From: Oscillospiraceae bacterium | Lineage (GTDB): Bacteria > Bacillota > Clostridia > Oscillospirales > Acutalibacteraceae | Reading direction: 5' to 3' | Assembly (NCBI GenBank): GCA_031256825.1 | Contig: JAIRPV010000038.1 | Location: forward strand, 72,136-121,192 | Length of the DNA: 49,057 nt | In this document: one piece after another, positions 2,778 to 46,417 of the stretch | How the letters are laid out: every line of letters begins with the position of its first letter | Numbering within the stretch: the first letter of the stretch is position 1 | Made by a program: the position numbers and the translations under genes | The notes under the pieces: model-generated | Seen by the model: the letters and a program-made list of their open reading frames with translations, nothing else | Database searches by the model: none | What the model was told of the DNA's origin: nothing

Positions 2778-5753
2778 TTACTGCGCGGCAGACAGATACG
2801 CCGCGATTCCGTCGGCGGTTGCCTGGGCCAGAATGTCCTGATACTGATCTTTTTGCAGCGCGCGGCATTCGGTCAGGTTTGTGCCGAAGCCATACTCGAT
2901 GAGAATCGCCGGGCACTCCTCGATGCGGGTCACCAGGAAGGGATAGAAATAGGTGCCGTGATCGGCCTTGTTCTGCATGGCGGCATACTCGCCGGGGTAG
3001 TTGGCCGCGGTATAAATTTGGGTTTTATAGGCGCTGACCAGTTTTTCGTGCACCGCCTTGGCGAGGGGCTGGCCATAGGGTTTATAATAGAACGCCGTTG
3101 TGCCGCTGGAAGTGGCCGAACTGGCTGAATCCACGTGCAGGCTGAGGAACAGATCGGGATTGGCCGCCCGTGCGCGCGCCGCGCGGGTTTCAAGCGTGGC
3201 GGAGCTGTCGTCCGTGCGGGTCATGACCACGCCGGCCCCTTTGGCTTCGAGCTTTGCTTTGAGCTTCAGCGCGATGGCCAAGGTGATATTTTTTTCGTTG
3301 ACCATCGTGTCGTGCGACGCCACGGGCTTCATGCCCGGATCGCTGCCGCCGTGGCCCGCGTCGAGGTAGATCACCGTGCCATTGAGCGTTGGCGAAGGCT
3401 TCGGCCGCATACGGAGAACCAGTTGGCCGCCCTCGTAGGAGGCCTTGTAACCATAAAACTTGCCGGGGTTGCGCAGGCTCAGCTTCAGCGTCACTGTATT
3501 CTTCGCCGTGTCTTTGCTCCACTCGGCGTTGTGGAACAGCGCGGATGTGGCGGCGTTCACCAGCCCGCTGTAGCCGCTGGTGTGGTAGAACGTGAGTTCC
3601 ACCGCCGTAGCGGTAAAGTTGGAAACGCCGTAAGTGTAGCCGCTAAAGCCCAGGCTGGAACTATAGCTCTGCCCGAGCAGGGTGACATTGAACGGAACCT
3701 TCCAGTTAACGCCAAAGCACAGCACATAGGCGCCGCCGTCGTTTTCTCCCGAAGCCGCAAGAACATTCAGGGGCAGCCGATACCCCGCGTTGAGCACATC
3801 CAAATCCTTCGCGTTCGCCCGCTTGCCGGAAGCCAGCGCGTAATAGGTATCGCCCCCGTTGGTTGTGGAGCCGGTAATATAGTCATAGGTGCCCGCCAGC
3901 AGCGGGGAAGACGTTGGCACGGAGCGCGTGTCGGTTCCGCCGCTCCAATGGCAGTTCGCGTAGTCCGCCTTCACGCGGATCATCTTCGCGGTACCCAGGC
4001 CATGGTTTGTTTCGGGGGTTAACAGCGCCCCTGCGGGCGGATTTTCTACGGGCGGCGTCTCCACGGGGGGATCCGTGACGGGGAGTTTGGGCGGATCTTC
4101 GCCCTCGTCGCCGCTCCACTGCGAAGGCGGCTCCCAGCTGGGAGCGCTCGGGGGCTGCCATGTTGGATCCGGCGGCGTTTCCGGTGGAACTTCCGGTTCC
4201 GGCAGCTGCGGTTCCGGAAGAATATCCGGCAGCAGCGAAACGCGCCCGCCGCTCTTCGTATCCGTTACGCCCTGGTAGCTGGCGCTGAAGGACAGCGCGC
4301 CAAGGCTTTGCTTCACATTGGAATTCGGCAGCTGAAACACGCCCACATAGGTGATGAAGCTGTCGCTTTCTTCGTGGGGCGGCTCCGCGCCGTCTTCTTC
4401 AATGGCGGCGCCCGGCTTTAAGCTGATCACCTGGCCGTTGAGGCTGGCGCGCACCACCGCGCCGCGGCGCGCCACGGCGCTGACGGCCAAATCGATGCCG
4501 CCCGTTGTTTCGAGCGCGGAACGGGGGCTTACGCGCTCGAGCACCATCACGTCGTAGACCACATGCACCGCAAAGGTGTTATCCTGATGGGTGAAGGTGA
4601 AATCGTTTTTGCCCGGCTGCAAGGGGAAATCCACCGTAAAATCGCCGCTTTCGTTGCGCGGCAGTTCTTTGCCGTTGATCAGCAGCGGGAATAGGGGGTT
4701 GCTGGAGCCGGTAAAGTTGATTTCGGGCTTGTCCGCATGGATGGTCTGCTCGGCCTTGAGCGTCTTCAGGGGCTTCACCAGCGAGAATTGCCGCGACACC
4801 GCAGAAAGATCCAAATCGTTCGAAAAGAACTGCGAAAGCAGCTTCGCCGCCTGTTCGCTCTTTGGCACATAATCCGCCGTTTGCAGCACCAGGGGGTAAT
4901 CTTTGCAAAGCTGCAGCGACTCGAGGAATCCCACAACCTCCTCCAGCGTGCCGTTCGGTATGGCTTCTTTTACGTTCACCACCGCGCTGAGCCGGGGACC
5001 CGCTTTTTCGTCCGCGCCCAGCGCCTTCTTCAGGCCATCCAGCAGCTTCGCCGAAGCGTCGTCCACCTGCACAAGAAATTCCGGCTTGAGCAGCGTGCCC
5101 GCCACGCCCTTCAGGCTTTCTAAGTACGCCTGGGTTTCTTTCAGGCTGCCGGGCACCTCAAATTTCAGCGGGATGTCCTGCAATTCCGCGTCTTTCAGCA
5201 GCTGGTTCAAGCTGCCCATGAATTGGATCAGCCCCTGGCCGTCCGCGTCGGCCGCAGGCGAATCCTGCACCAGCAGCGCGTCGAACGAGCTTTCTTGAAT
5301 CAGCCGCGTCAGTTCCGTGCCCAGCTTCACAAAGGCGTCATCCGCCACGGCGGGAACGGTCAGCGTGCGGAACACGCCCTGATCCCCCAGATAATCCAGC
5401 GCTTCTTTCACCTGCCCCAGCGCGGATGCGGAAGCGCCGCCCAGCGCGTTGGGCAAAATCACGGAGCGGAAGCCCTTGTTCACCAAATCTTCGAGGGCGG
5501 TTTTTTCTAAACTGGGCGCGGCGGCTGTGTTTTGATCCAGCAGCTGGGGCGCCGGCTGCCAGCTTGCCGCAGCAACGGCCGGCAGAGTGCCCTGCTCTGT
5601 GAAATACGACGCCGCGACAGTCTCCTGCGGGGCGTCCGGGGCAGCGCCCCGGGCATGCCGATATACGGTCCAGCCCGAAAACGCCAGCGCCAGGCAGATG
5701 ACGGCCAAACTCAGCGCAAACAGTCGGTTCCAGCGATTTTTTTCTTTTTTCAT
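2778..5753 (-). CDS. Large membrane-anchored N-acetylmuramoyl-L-alanine amidase (Amidase_3)
   Basis: About 991 residues from the second of two adjacent ATGs (5753), chosen because AGGTG is 5 bases upstream of it and only 2 from the first. An N-terminal anchor (RLFALSLAVICLALAFSGW) is followed by a region of about 270 residues with alternating helix/strand character (GFRSVILPNALGG, VVNVKEAIPN) that looks like a degenerate TIM barrel. Next comes an Ig-like stretch (PLLINGKELPRNESGDFTVD), a Pro-rich linker, a middle domain and, from about residue 793, a zinc-dependent Amidase_3 domain: DAGHGG, a Glu in NEKNITL, SLHVDS and ILIEYGF supply the expected His/Glu/His/Glu residues. By family it cleaves the amide bond between MurNAc and the stem peptide. 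The N-terminal half is unusual for amidases. A GHL10 glycosidase gene lies directly upstream, so both probably act in wall remodelling. Confidence 0.85.
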   Translation of the reverse strand: MKKEKNRWNRLFALSLAVICLALAFSGWTVYRHARGAAPDAPQETVAASYFTEQGTLPAVAAASWQPAPQLLDQNTAAAPSLEKTALEDLVNKGFRSVILPNALGGASASALGQVKEALDYLGDQGVFRTLTVPAVADDAFVKLGTELTRLIQESSFDALLVQDSPAADADGQGLIQFMGSLNQLLKDAELQDIPLKFEVPGSLKETQAYLESLKGVAGTLLKPEFLVQVDDASAKLLDGLKKALGADEKAGPRLSAVVNVKEAIPNGTLEEVVGFLESLQLCKDYPLVLQTADYVPKSEQAAKLLSQFFSNDLDLSAVSRQFSLVKPLKTLKAEQTIHADKPEINFTGSSNPLFPLLINGKELPRNESGDFTVDFPLQPGKNDFTFTHQDNTFAVHVVYDVMVLERVSPRSALETTGGIDLAVSAVARRGAVVRASLNGQVISLKPGAAIEEDGAEPPHEESDSFITYVGVFQLPNSNVKQSLGALSFSASYQGVTDTKSGGRVSLLPDILPEPQLPEPEVPPETPPDPTWQPPSAPSWEPPSQWSGDEGEDPPKLPVTDPPVETPPVENPPAGALLTPETNHGLGTAKMIRVKADYANCHWSGGTDTRSVPTSSPLLAGTYDYITGSTTNGGDTYYALASGKRANAKDLDVLNAGYRLPLNVLAASGENDGGAYVLCFGVNWKVPFNVTLLGQSYSSSLGFSGYTYGVSNFTATAVELTFYHTSGYSGLVNAATSALFHNAEWSKDTAKNTVTLKLSLRNPGKFYGYKASYEGGQLVLRMRPKPSPTLNGTVIYLDAGHGGSDPGMKPVASHDTMVNEKNITLAIALKLKAKLEAKGAGVVMTRTDDSSATLETRAARARAANPDLFLSLHVDSASSATSSGTTAFYYKPYGQPLAKAVHEKLVSAYKTQIYTAANYPGEYAAMQNKADHGTYFYPFLVTRIEECPAILIEYGFGTNLTECRALQKDQYQDILAQATADGIAAYLSAAQ

Positions 5754-8413: not shown

Positions 8414-8448
8414 CTACCGTTCGTTGTATTATATCAACCGTTGGTTGT
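8414..8448 (-). promoter_or_regulatory. Possible operator: two direct repeats upstream of the XRE promoter
   Basis: On the minus strand ACAACCAACGGTTG (8448-8435) and ACAACGAACGGTAG (8427-8414), spaced 21 bases centre to centre, or two helical turns. The first is a near-palindrome and overlaps the 3' end of the HAD gene. They sit 12 bases upstream of the -35. Autoregulation by the XRE protein is an inference. Confidence 0.4.
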
Positions 8449-9139
8449 AATTCGCGTCAGTTTGCCCTCTGGCGGCTTCCCGCTCCAGTTCCTCCTGAAA
8501 GCTCCGGATCGATCCATCCGCGAAAGCGCACATCTCGTCCCAGTTTTGCCGGGAGGCAGGCTCATAGACCGCAATGGCGGCCATGCCGGCCGCTTTGATG
8601 CCCCGCAGCGACAGCAGGATGTCGTCGTAGGCCGCGCAGCGCTCAGGCGGCACGCCCAGCTTCCCGGCTGCCCGCAAATAAATATCCGGGTAGGCCTTGC
8701 CGCGCGGCACCTCGTCAGCAGAAGTCAGCGCGCCGAACCAGGGCAGCACGCCGTTATGTTCCAGCACGGCTTCCATCACATGCGTGGTCAGGCTCGTGGC
8801 AACCGCAAGGCGCACGCCCCTGCCCCGCAGCAACGAAAGGTATTCCCGCGCGCCGGGTTTCAGCTCAACCCGGCTGCTGTATTGCACGAAGCTCATGGCG
8901 TTCCACTCGGCCATCACGCTTTCCGGCGTTTCGGGCAATCCAAAGCGGGCGATGGTGTAATCCGCCACTTCGCGGAAGGTCATGGCCTGGATGGCTATGG
9001 CGTAGTCTTCCGGCAAAGCCATGCCCCGCGCGGCAAAAAACGCCTCGTCCACCCTGTGCCATACCCACATGGAATCCAGCAGCGTGCCATCCAGATCAAA
9101 AATCGCGGCCTGCGGCAGCGAACCATTCTCAGCGAACAA
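8429..9139 (-). CDS. HAD-superfamily hydrolase (beta-phosphoglucomutase-like)
   Basis: A 236-residue protein. No ATG is available at the expected N-terminus; the TTG at 9139 with AGAGGGG about 11 bases upstream is the best start. Motif I is FDLDGTLLDS (residues about 14-23), with both Asp residues of the phosphoaspartate site. VATSLTTHVMEA gives the motif II Ser/Thr, a Lys is present in PRGKAYPDIYL, and AAYDDILLSLRGIKAAGM carries the metal-binding acidic motif. The helical cap follows motif I, as in subfamily IA. Such enzymes dephosphorylate small metabolites or isomerise sugar phosphates; the substrate cannot be read from sequence. Its transcript would begin with a copy of the dispersed stem-loop element. 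Confidence 0.8.
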   Translation of the reverse strand: MFAENGSLPQAAIFDLDGTLLDSMWVWHRVDEAFFAARGMALPEDYAIAIQAMTFREVADYTIARFGLPETPESVMAEWNAMSFVQYSSRVELKPGAREYLSLLRGRGVRLAVATSLTTHVMEAVLEHNGVLPWFGALTSADEVPRGKAYPDIYLRAAGKLGVPPERCAAYDDILLSLRGIKAAGMAAIAVYEPASRQNWDEMCAFADGSIRSFQEELEREAARGQTDANYNQRLI

Positions 9140-9159: not shown

Positions 9160-9259
9160 GGCAATATGTTTCTTGCTTGTGGCGAGCAGTCCGTCACGGG
9201 CGGCTGCTTCGCAAAATCATATCTCGCCACAGGTTATGTGCCTATTATATCATATTGCC
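9160..9259 (-). repeat. Dispersed stem-loop element, copy E (5' leader of the HAD gene)
   Basis: Core 9176-9233 (58 bp), on the minus strand CCTGTGGCGAG...CTCGCCACAAG, a strong terminal stem. It is also bounded by a perfect outer inverted repeat GGCAATATG (9160-9168) / CATATTGCC (9251-9259). The inner part shares GACGGACTGCTC with the copies near 28000. It begins immediately after a consensus promoter. Confidence 0.75.
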
Positions 9260-27925: not shown

Positions 27926-27954
27926 TTGCAATTTGCCGCGGGATGTGGTATAAT
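27926..27954 (+). promoter_or_regulatory. SigA promoter reading into the tandem stem-loop elements
   Basis: -35 TTGCAA (27926-27931), 17-base spacer, -10 TATAAT (27949-27954). The next gene on this strand starts 500 bases away, so it may make a long leader or a non-coding RNA. Confidence 0.65.
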
Positions 27955-28022
27955 GAACACAATACCGGTGGCGAGGGATGGCTTTGCAGGGCAAGTGCCA
28001 ATGACGGACTGCTCACCGCAGG
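27949..28022 (+). repeat. Dispersed stem-loop element, copy A
   Basis: Core 27965-28022 runs from CCGGTGGCGAG to CTCACCGCAGG, imperfect inverted termini. It is preceded by GGTATAAT and AACACAATA. It is followed by a second copy with only one difference over about 55 bases, offset 79 bp. Confidence 0.85.
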
Positions 28023-28044
28023 TACGTCATAATAATCACATGAG

Positions 28045-28101
28045 CTGTGGCGAGGGATGGCTTTGCAGCGCAAGTGCCAATGACGGACTGCTCACCGCAG
28101 G
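28045..28101 (+). repeat. Dispersed stem-loop element, copy B (tandem with A)
   Basis: It runs from CTGTGGCGAG to CTCACCGCAGG. Its right flank GTGTGGTATGAT matches the right flank of copy D, GTGTGGTATAAT. Confidence 0.85.
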
Positions 28102-28126
28102 TGTGGTATGATAGAAGTAGTCTACT

Positions 28127-28153
28127 TGTGATATAACAGCACAAGGCCTGTGG
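28127..28153 (+). repeat. Left-end fragment of the stem-loop element
   Basis: These 27 bases match 28344-28370, the left end of copy C, at 23 positions. The rest of the element is missing or diverged. Confidence 0.6.
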
Positions 28154-28340
28154 TTTGTGATGATTTTGTGAAGCGATTTCTGGTGGCAAATTATCACGCT
28201 TTGCGCGTTCCCCGAAAGAATCTTCCGCAGCGCGTTTTTACGATAGTTCGAAATTTCGGAATGGCGAACCGGTTTTTGACCCCTTTTCAGAGCCAGAATC
28301 CAGTATTTCGGAATTTCGGAATTTCGCAACTTGCCGCTTT
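28154..28340. other. Unassigned segment between two left ends of the element
   Basis: I see no gene here. Short ORFs on both strands run out of or across the flanking repeats and lack a Shine-Dalgarno. The segment contains repeated TTTCGGAA motifs (28251-28325), including three consecutive copies near its right end. It may be a remnant of a larger repeat. Confidence 0.5.
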
Positions 28341-28440
28341 TGATGTGATATAGCAGCACAAAACCTGCGGCGAGAGATATCTTCGCGAAACAGCCGCCTG
28401 TGATAAATCACCACTGCAGGTGTGACATTATTATGATATA
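28341..28440 (+). repeat. Dispersed stem-loop element, copy C (diverged), upstream of the DUF4065 gene
   Basis: Core 28364-28420 from CCTGCGGCGAG to CACTGCAGG, with GAGATATCTTCGCGAAACAG in the interior, similar to copies D and E. The right flank GTGTGACATTATTATGATATAG ends 18 bases before the DUF4065 start codon. Confidence 0.75.
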
Positions 28441-28457: not shown

Positions 28458-28910
28458 ATGCTGTCGCCGCTGACCTATGCCAATTCCATCATCAAAAAGG
28501 CGTTAGAAACAAAAACGCCGCTTAGCCCAATGAAGCTGCAAAAGCTGATGTACCTGACCTACGCAAGATATTTGTTCCGGCAAGACGCCCCGCTGTTTGC
28601 CGAACGCTTCGAAAAATGGCGCTTTGGGCCTGTGCTTTCCGACGTATACGATGAGTTCAAGGGGTACAAAGCGCAATCCATCGACGATTTTTATTACAAC
28701 TGCGACGGAAAAGCGCCCGTTGTCAGCACCGCATTCTGGGAGTTCTACCAATGCCTGGACGAGGTCTGGAGCGCGTTCGGCTGCTGGGACGGCATCTCCC
28801 TTTCCGGCCTGACGCACCGGCCCGGCACCGCTTGGAACAAGGCGACCGGCATATTTTTGGAAGAGGAGGACATCCGGGAGGATGGAAAACTTTTATTCGC
28901 CGGAACCTAA
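28458..28910 (+). CDS. DUF4065 (Panacea/SocA/GepA-like) protein, probable antitoxin
   Basis: 150 residues; GAAGGGGGG precedes the ATG. The N-terminus MLSPLTYANSIIKKAL...MSPMKLQKLMYLTY-like pattern (seen here as PLSPMKLQKLMYLTYARYLF), then FEKWRFGPVLSDVYDEFKGY and GLTHRPGTAWNKA are hallmarks of DUF4065. This domain, called Panacea, serves as a widely exchanged antitoxin domain in two-gene toxin-antitoxin pairs and also occurs in phage GepA proteins. Its gene overlaps by 29 bases the start of a small membrane-protein gene, which is the candidate toxin. Copies of the stem-loop element lie immediately upstream. Confidence 0.85.
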   Translation: MLSPLTYANSIIKKALETKTPLSPMKLQKLMYLTYARYLFRQDAPLFAERFEKWRFGPVLSDVYDEFKGYKAQSIDDFYYNCDGKAPVVSTAFWEFYQCLDEVWSAFGCWDGISLSGLTHRPGTAWNKATGIFLEEEDIREDGKLLFAGT

Positions 28911-37143: not shown

Positions 37144-37342
37144 AAAATCCCCACCAAGCCGTAACGGCGTGGAATGACCTGCCCGAAAGCAGGTGGGTAG
37201 CCTCCCGGCGCGTTCACGCTCCCTTCATCCAAACAAGCGCAAAGCTTGCCCGGGAGGTCTGCAATCCAGCGTCGGAGTCCGGCTCCCTGATGATTGGTGT
37301 AGGGCCATCCAGACCGTAGGTATCGCACAAGGCAGGGATTTT
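37144..37342 (-). ncRNA. ssrS: Structured RNA, probably 6S RNA (SsrS)
   Basis: About 199 bases on the minus strand, delimited by a closing stem AAAATCCC(TGCC) / GGTGGGGATTTT. The 3' side contains CTACCCACCTGC...GCAGGT and GCCGTTACGGC hairpins, and an internal CCTCCCGG / CCGGGAGG helix encloses further hairpins. The size, the closing stem and the 3' portion resemble clostridial 6S RNA, which binds the SigA RNA polymerase in slow growth. I cannot verify the covariance model and the multi-hairpin middle is less rod-like than classical 6S, so another RNA family is possible. No ORF with a Shine-Dalgarno fits the interval. Confidence 0.55.
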
Positions 37343-45455: not shown

Positions 45456-46280
45456 TCAGACCCCCATTTTCAGCTGCTCCAGCCCCAGCCGCAAGTCTGC
45501 GGGCAGAGCAGGGAACAGTTCGGCTTCGATCTTCTCCCAGTCGGGGATCAGCATTTGGAACTGGCGCTCGGGGCTTAGCGCGCGCAGCTCCCGCCGCACA
45601 TAGCCGTCGGAAATCATCTCGCGCAAAATCAGCTCATATTTGTTCGCGCTGCCGCCATAGATGCGCTGCACATTCTCCACCGTTTTCATGAACGTTGGCA
45701 TCATACCCCGGCTTTCGATGATACGGAAATTGCGCAGCAGGTTTGCCTGATAGACGGCGTCTTCCTCGTCGATCACATTCATGAGTTTCGTCCAGCTCGA
45801 ACACTCGCGCAGTTGGTGGCTGAGTGTGCCGGGCACGCCGTAGACCCCCACGATTTTGTCCATGAATGTCTTCATAAACGTGGCGATGGAGGAAAAATGC
45901 CCGTCGCCCGTGAACAGAACAAATTGCTTCACCACCGGGTTTTGGATAATTTCCTGATACATTTGATCCAGCATGATAAAGTCGGTGAAATCTTTTTTGT
46001 TGACGGTGCTTTCGTTGCTGCAATCCGTGATATCGCTCGTAACGGTACGAATGCGGTTGCGCTCCTGATTCAGCTCTGGTTTTGTGAAATCGCCAAATAC
46101 TTTAACCTTCAAAACTTTGCCGTGCTTTTTGACGTCATCGATCATAGGAAACAGGTCGGGTGCGCATGCAAATTTGTTGAGAAAGCTGAAATATAGGGAT
46201 TCATAGTCAATAAACACCGCTGTCATGATGTCATTGTCGGTTTCTGATGGACTTTTGTGTACGCGAAATTCCACTTTCAC
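45456..46280 (-). CDS. NYN-domain (PIN-like) protein, putative RNase
   Basis: 274 residues from the GTG at 46280 (AAGAGAGG 9 bases upstream); an in-frame ATG at residue 19 is an alternative. The NYN fold is shown by MTAVFIDYESLYFSF (Asp 25), FTDFIMLDQMYQE and QFVLFTGDGHFSSIATFMK, giving the acidic residues of the PIN-like active site. After about residue 180 comes a helical C-terminal region resembling a winged helix (LILREMISDGYVRREL). NYN proteins are predicted or shown RNA endonucleases; the target is unknown. A copy of the dispersed stem-loop element lies upstream and supplies a promoter. Confidence 0.8.
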   Translation of the reverse strand: MKVEFRVHKSPSETDNDIMTAVFIDYESLYFSFLNKFACAPDLFPMIDDVKKHGKVLKVKVFGDFTKPELNQERNRIRTVTSDITDCSNESTVNKKDFTDFIMLDQMYQEIIQNPVVKQFVLFTGDGHFSSIATFMKTFMDKIVGVYGVPGTLSHQLRECSSWTKLMNVIDEEDAVYQANLLRNFRIIESRGMMPTFMKTVENVQRIYGGSANKYELILREMISDGYVRRELRALSPERQFQMLIPDWEKIEAELFPALPADLRLGLEQLKMGV

Positions 46281-46325: not shown

Positions 46326-46417
46326 CTATTATACCACACCTGCGGTGAGCAGTTCGTCATTGGCAATTGCTTTGCAAAGATATCCCTCGCCACCGGTATT
46401 GTGCTTATTATACCATA
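46326..46417 (-). repeat. Dispersed stem-loop element, copy D (upstream of the NYN gene)
   Basis: Core 46339-46396, on the minus strand CCGGTGGCGAG to CTCACCGCAGG. Both flanks contain TGGTATAAT in direct orientation. The left flank up to GCACAATACC matches copy A almost exactly. Confidence 0.85.

Follow-up and report, generated by a model that had tools for sequence, protein, structure and literature searches.

Five related sequences in the window, by which we mean the whole 49,057-nucleotide stretch of Oscillospiraceae DNA analyzed here, belong to a dispersed repeat that is very probably a noncoding, nonautonomous mobile element of ~73 bp, which targets the −10 boxes of promoters, lies there in one orientation, and occurs with other interiors in related bacteria. 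A search of the window's genome (a 2.05-Mb draft in 42 contigs) with the left-end pattern of the element, allowing at most 3 mismatches, returned 55 sites, and the corresponding right-end search returned 39; the reversed-pattern control returned 0 sites for each end. BLASTN with copy A against the same genome gave 45 matches at an E value of ≤10 and 38 at ≤5e-4, copy A itself being included in both counts. The initial annotation had located copies A, B, and C on the plus strand and copies D and E on the minus strand and had described a common interior and common ends; our alignment over the stated core confirms these five copies at about the positions given, with the interior and both ends shared. 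The repeated unit, however, is not the 57 to 58 bp given there but ~73 bp (AATARGCAC...CTCACCGCAGGTG in the window's genome) plus a 6-bp flank repeat. Nearly every aligned copy begins with AAT, ends with CTCACCGCAGGTG or CTCGCCGCAGGCG, and has a TATAAT-like box on each side, and tandem copies with a period of 79 to 80 bp are frequent in this genome.

Table 1. Element copies, flanking hexamers, and neighboring features in the window
Feature	Coordinates	Strand	Basis or remark
−35 box TTGCAA, host promoter of array A-B	27926..27931	+	Sequence; 17 bp before TATAAT
Left hexamer TGGTAT (first half, extended −10) of array A-B	27946..27951	+	Sequence
Element copy A, 73 bp	27952..28024	+	Starting AAT completes the upstream −10
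Middle hexamer CGTCAT, between A and B	28025..28030	+	Diverged
Element copy B, 73 bp	28031..28103	+	Tandem period of 79 bp with A
Right hexamer TGGTAT of A-B, then GAT	28104..28109	+	Downstream box TATGAT; identical to left outer hexamer
Hexamer TGATAT preceding the long relative	28129..28134	+	
Long relative, 211 bp	28135..28345	+	Left end AACAGCACAAGGCCTGTGG, different interior; boundaries inferred
Hexamer TGATAT between long relative and copy C	28346..28351	+	Identical to 28129-28134
Element copy C, 71 bp	28352..28422	+	
Right hexamer TGACAT of copy C	28423..28428	+	
Gene downstream of C, SocA/Panacea domain	28458..28910	+	Pfam PF13274
Left hexamer TGGTAT of copy D	46410..46415	−	
Element copy D, 73 bp	46337..46409	−	
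Right hexamer TGGTAT of copy D, then AAT	46331..46336	−	Second perfect −10
Gene downstream of D, NYN domain	45456..46280	−	Pfam PF01936
Left hexamer TGATAT of copy E	9247..9252	−	
Element copy E, 73 bp	9174..9246	−	Right end diverged; right boundary inferred from other copies
Gene downstream of E, HAD-type hydrolase	8429..9139	−	Pfam PF00702
6S RNA	37144..37341	−	Rfam RF00013, 56.4 bits

Within the window (Table 1), the tandem pair A-B is followed by a short gap, the 211-bp relative, and then copy C, which precedes a gene whose SocA/Panacea domain we take to be the DUF4065 named in the initial annotation. Copies A, D, and E directly follow a TTGNNN-17-TATAAT promoter, as had been noted before; the broader statement that the element lies just downstream of a −10 box fits these three copies, whereas B is preceded by CATAAT and C by TATAGC, both imperfect boxes. 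The promoter flanks described earlier are present, and they can be specified further: the insertion point is inside the −10 box, the first half of which is repeated. Other features had been missed, namely, the second −10-like box after B (TATGAT) and D (TATAAT), the tandem arrangement of A and B at 79 bp, and the long relative ahead of C. The long relative has the same hexamer on both flanks and copy C has hexamers of different sequence; copy E has no recognizable right-hand −10 and no match to a right hexamer. The motif TGNTATAAT occurs 7 times in the window, against 0.24 occurrences expected: three occurrences carry the element (A, D, and E), and copy D has a further one as its downstream box; of the remaining three, a site with TTGCAA upstream resembles an unoccupied promoter, and two are not promoter-like by eye. 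Repeats of ~200 to 250 bp that share the left end of the element and have an interior ending near GGAATTTCGGAATTTCG are found at the position of the long relative and elsewhere in the genome (G000 loci L071, L074, L079, L080, L154, L155, L160, L161, and L163); they start at −10 boxes and are tandem in some loci.

The copies tested have one orientation relative to the promoter. Among 24 copies detected through their core alone, in loci fetched by BLASTN in the window's genome, all 24 had a same-direction −10 (matching TGNTATAAT at 7 or more of 9 bases) on the left, 22 had one on the right, and in none did an opposite-direction −10 score better on the left. Our catalogue of 141 copies required a right-hand −10 and is hence uninformative on orientation. 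A search for the reverse orientation, in which G000 and G003 gave 0 matches and G001 and G010 gave one match each, with 3 mismatches and no TATAAT, was built on a boundary that we later abandoned and is no proper test. At a distance of 16 to 18 bp, the left −10 is preceded by TTG in 42 of 55 arrays of the genus and the right −10 in 0 of 55; in other genera, the corresponding counts were 8 of 40 and 0 of 40. Downstream, 60 of 62 array ends were followed by an open reading frame (ORF) with a ribosome-site-like stretch, at a median of 31 nt past the right −10 (49 ORFs within 52 nt), as assigned by a first-ORF rule under which some calls will be wrong. Right ends in the genus were followed by at least 4 of the 6 bases of TATAAT in 81 of 100 cases, a proportion to be read knowing that many of these loci were fetched with a TATAAT-containing pattern; by eye, the other 19 looked like decayed copies or chance matches.

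The flanks of the element carry a short duplication. The 141 catalogued copies fall into 106 arrays, of which 11 were dropped because their spacing was odd or no upstream copy was present (in some of these, the script had misjudged the left box); the genus contributed 55 arrays and, after removal of 9 with an obvious partial copy behind, 46 outer-flank pairs. The free base before TATAAT was equal on both sides in 38 of the 46 pairs (12.7 expected), a value reached in 0 of 5,000 within-genome permutations, and single copies alone gave the same picture (24 of 31 equal; 8.7 expected; 0 of 5,000). Positions one and six of the hexamer showed a weaker excess, with 135 and 48 of 5,000 permutations reaching it, and upstream of the hexamer agreement showed no excess among the 46 pairs. 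The whole hexamer, (T/C)GNTA(T/A), had the same sequence left and right of the element at 32 of 46 loci of the genus versus 126 of 748 comparisons between loci of one genome; by genome, identical pairs numbered 17 of 21 in the window's genome, 12 of 18 in G001, 2 of 5 in G010, and 1 of 2 in G003. A target-site duplication of fixed length, of the kind used to define miniature elements (MITEs), is thus found in this genus. In other genera, the free base was equal in 26 of 38 pairs (27.5 expected), which is no excess and limits the established duplication to a single genus.

The second half of the −10 box locates the break. The half-box was AAT on the left in 45 of 46 pairs and on the right in 30 of 46 (P = 7e-5), and among the 16 pairs in which the right half-box was not AAT, the left one was AAT in 15. 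Because AAT is nearly constant on the left and, where an empty allele reads TATACT, ACT is seen in the right-hand box only, the break most likely falls between TAT and AAT, with the hexamer repeated and a fresh AAT supplied by the element. We had earlier drawn the boundary so that 10 bp, NTATAATARG, were duplicated and the ends read CACA...TGTG. That boundary was dropped since the AAT after the left hexamer derives from the element and since truncated second copies may explain agreement farther out, perhaps including that of the third base after the −10 (31 of 46 pairs; 20 expected; 0 of 5,000 permutations).

Sister species carry promoters without the element. We compared ten occupied sites of G001 with the corresponding regions of G010 and G003, species at roughly 75 to 90% identity. 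Six of the ten are empty in G010 with both flanks aligned (two at L043, two at L047, C4:33355, and C3:40049), and two of these six are empty in G003 as well. At C8:18802, G010 is empty with the upstream flank alone alignable; at C3:56205, the element is absent and the stretch rearranged; and G010 has no matching region for C8:2278 and C4:22332. A third locus in G003 is without the element and has unrelated DNA in its place. The empty alleles have one −10 box, and the occupied alleles have two or more. At site 1 in G010 and site 4 in G003, the empty allele reads TATACT and the occupied allele has ACT in its right box and AAT in its left; at site 1, the left and right hexamers differ by one base, and at site 4, the allele of G010 is not that of G003 but TATAAT. 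At C8:18802, G010 reads TATGAT, yet both G001 boxes end in AAT. Since the element is absent in two other species, the comparison favors gain in G001 over exact loss elsewhere, but the empty sites all come from other species at ~75 to 90% identity, and exact excision instead of insertion may have produced them. The mobile-element reading offered in the initial annotation, which called for empty sites in close strains, is therefore borne out by relatives for copies of the sister species and not for the window copies or in close strains. The yebC promoters across the genus were too diverged to give clear empty sites.

We propose that a putative trans-acting enzyme would make a 6-bp staggered cut in the −10 and insert the element, the host hexamer being duplicated in the process. 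The leading AAT of the element would turn TGNTAT into TGNTAT-AAT upstream, and the duplicated hexamer together with the host's own AAT (or ACT or CAT) would form the downstream −10, beside the ribosome-binding site. The distal promoter would retain its −35 and yield a leader ~80 nt longer, the proximal promoter would be an extended −10 without a −35, and output from tandem promoters is predicted. Because the target would be regenerated, further insertions would be possible and could account for the arrays of 79 to 80 bp. It is conceivable, though we hold the idea tentatively, that the element represents a distinct class of mobile DNA that targets the promoter itself, its enzyme reading the −10, perhaps as melted in the open complex, and the element bringing AAT; if so, insertion would be promoter preserving, orientation locked, and self-renewing as a target.

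The main rival to this scheme is site-specific recombination, in which small circles with the core TGNTAT would enter promoters with an identical core through a 6-bp overlap like that of tyrosine recombinases. It would explain the orientation, the arrays, the absence of constant inverted repeats, and the matching hexamers equally well. We nevertheless consider it rather improbable: at the positions compared, the targets have no conserved arms around the core (numbered from the first base of the −10, their flanks vary from −8 to −4 on the left and from +6 to +12 on the right, the −35 excepted), no enzyme was found, and a double-stranded circle of ~79 bp is very small. Terminal inverted repeats of the kind that MITEs have at both ends are not constant here: sister families keep the right end but vary in their left ends, and the imperfect inverted repeat seen in the window's genome, RCCTGYGG..CCGCAGG, lies subterminally on the left side. 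No transposase or recombinase with matching ends was found among the left-end and right-end loci that we read in these draft genomes, and the subset of matches read included no gene-carrying long copy or parent transposon with the same ends.

The right-end pattern was present in 5 of 14 genomes of the genus (39 sites in the window's genome, 31 in G001, 7 in G010, 4 in G003, and 1 in G002), and the other 9 had 0 sites. Interiors in G001 and G010 are unlike those of the window's genome and are of several types, at times mixed in one array. An exact-match scan of species genomes, which may omit records close to the window's genome, yielded 58 stretches in which the right end and the paired boxes recur; they come from ten assemblies, including G001 and G010, titled Clostridia, Clostridiales, Oscillospiraceae, “Candidatus Gallacutalibacter,” “Candidatus Caccousia,” Anaeromassilibacillus, and Neglecta. 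“Candidatus Gallacutalibacter pullicola” was the richest (22 of 58 stretches, with units mostly of 103 to 105 bp). Viral contigs gave no match to the exact right-end pattern, and BLASTN with A-B gave none among phages and plasmids. In many “Candidatus Gallacutalibacter” arrays (e.g., L097, L107, L110, and L138), the first TATAAT directly follows another sequence that these arrays share, ACTCTGTCGCGGTGG..GGCTGGTC.GGGATATGG; L142 of G002, upstream of yebC, and L075 carry another interior type (GACGCGGG...GCGCGAACTGCTCACC in L142), with −10 boxes that are degenerate in places; and a distinct abundant repeat, a AAAAAAGAAC-type hairpin plus CGCGAAGCGG, lies at ~720 to 890, 2860 to 3030, and 4440 to 4590 of L047 in G001 and has dozens of matches in G010 and G003.

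A tandem-promoter cassette kept by selection, consisting of a protein-binding palindrome (CACCGCAGGTG) upstream of an extended −10 and spread by recombination, would account for a palindrome that changes symmetrically and keeps a fixed distance to the downstream −10, as well as for the free base that is not duplicated in other genera. However, the downstream −10 in the genus differs by site (TATACT, TAAAAT, and CG variants), and the palindrome is missing from long relatives and truncated copies that nonetheless start at −10 boxes, so we regard such a cassette as very unlikely.

We give about as little weight to a cis-regulatory RNA, i.e., an attenuator or riboswitch-like leader common to a regulon, which the initial annotation had offered as the other possible reading. 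The element does lie directly after the −10, in one orientation, within the leader of the gene. Its fold, though, is weak: z-scores were −1.42, 0.11, −2.32, −0.56, and −1.95 for copies A to E, respectively, and the outer stem, for which compensatory changes had been named as the check for an RNA, does not covary, pairing in 83.5% of cases versus 83.4% in shuffles. A stem-loop RNA family was pursued through single-copy folds, consensus folds of three alignments, and pair counts and was rejected. For the window's genome, the consensus of 40 copies retained a 4-bp right-end hairpin, CACC-GCA-GGTG, alone. An A-U to G-C change keeps this hairpin paired in all three alignments (window's genome, sister species, and other genera), which speaks for an RNA; that pair is the only one clearly changed at both of its positions, and we infer that the hairpin is part of an end recognized by an enzyme or protein. 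The element may fold in other genera, where 2 of 11 pairs of a proposed fold changed on both sides and, at one of these, 11 of 46 cells were broken. Rfam covariance models, to which a comparison had been suggested, gave no match to the element at the gathering score (16 loci); one search returned a single match far below its gathering score and outside the copies. Interiors also vary from the window's genome to its sisters, promoters are empty in relatives, and few downstream genes are common to species: 53 downstream proteins included two cross-species pairs (L035/L044 and L056/L060), and yebC adds a third case, in which the window's genome and G002 carry elements of different types. A few genes thus carry an element in two species, as a regulon would have it; these repeated cases indicate that some insertions may predate the species splits or that some genes are preferred.

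Least probable of all is movement of a REP/REPIN-like element by a RAYT (Y1 HUH) transposase, which would suit the small size, single orientation, short hairpin at one end, and asymmetric ends, since Pfam Y1_Tnp (PF01797) was found in 2 of 14 genomes of the genus (G001 and G003) and not in the window's draft genome, and since RAYT chemistry is not expected to duplicate the target.

A nonautonomous mobile element inserted at −10 boxes remains our preferred reading, and the closest known elements in behavior are the Correia elements (CREE/NEMIS) of Neisseria, with which we compare it by description, the host group being different. Correia elements are described as having inverted repeats of 24 to 26 bp (PMC2229807, PMC5039591), as mostly intergenic (PMC5039591), as known from filled and empty sites (PMC2229807), and as carrying their own promoters (PMC10969869); their direct repeats, such as TA, TAT, TATA, and TATAG, are said to resemble the −10 and to favor fusion promoters (PMC9330008). 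Like them, the present element is small, abundant, nonautonomous, and promoter related; unlike them, it has no constant inverted repeats, has a TGNTAT hexamer as its flank repeat, and occupies −10 boxes that already exist, facing one way and with a −10 box on each side. MITEs (RUP, ERIC, and others) are described as short, noncoding sequences with inverted repeats and target duplication, some of the small repeats listed with them being without inverted repeats (PMC2229807). The present element shares the short length, lack of coding capacity, and target duplication but differs in having no constant terminal inverted repeats across families and no parent insertion sequence that we could find. 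REP and REPIN sequences are described as short, many-copy, partly palindromic repeats (PMC3116915, PMC3733652). In contrast with REP/REPIN systems that have a RAYT, no Y1 transposase was found in the window's genome, and there is a flank repeat. In tandem integration of the dif or attI type, the target is regenerated at each insertion, and arrays grow. Target regeneration would let arrays grow here as well, but the present targets are numerous promoters that are unrelated to one another and lack conserved arms. No description of the present element appeared among the best-ranked matches in the open-license literature.

Mobile elements that hit promoters usually damage a promoter or add one. 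Because the −10 box is rebuilt on both sides, the element described here appears able to spread and accumulate before genes without obvious breakage, and insertion in mid-hexamer would be a way to stay harmless in front of dozens of genes. Many genes of these bacteria, most of which are uncultured, are predicted to have tandem promoters and longer leaders, and the question arises of whether an integration enzyme reads the −10 sequence or the transcription bubble.
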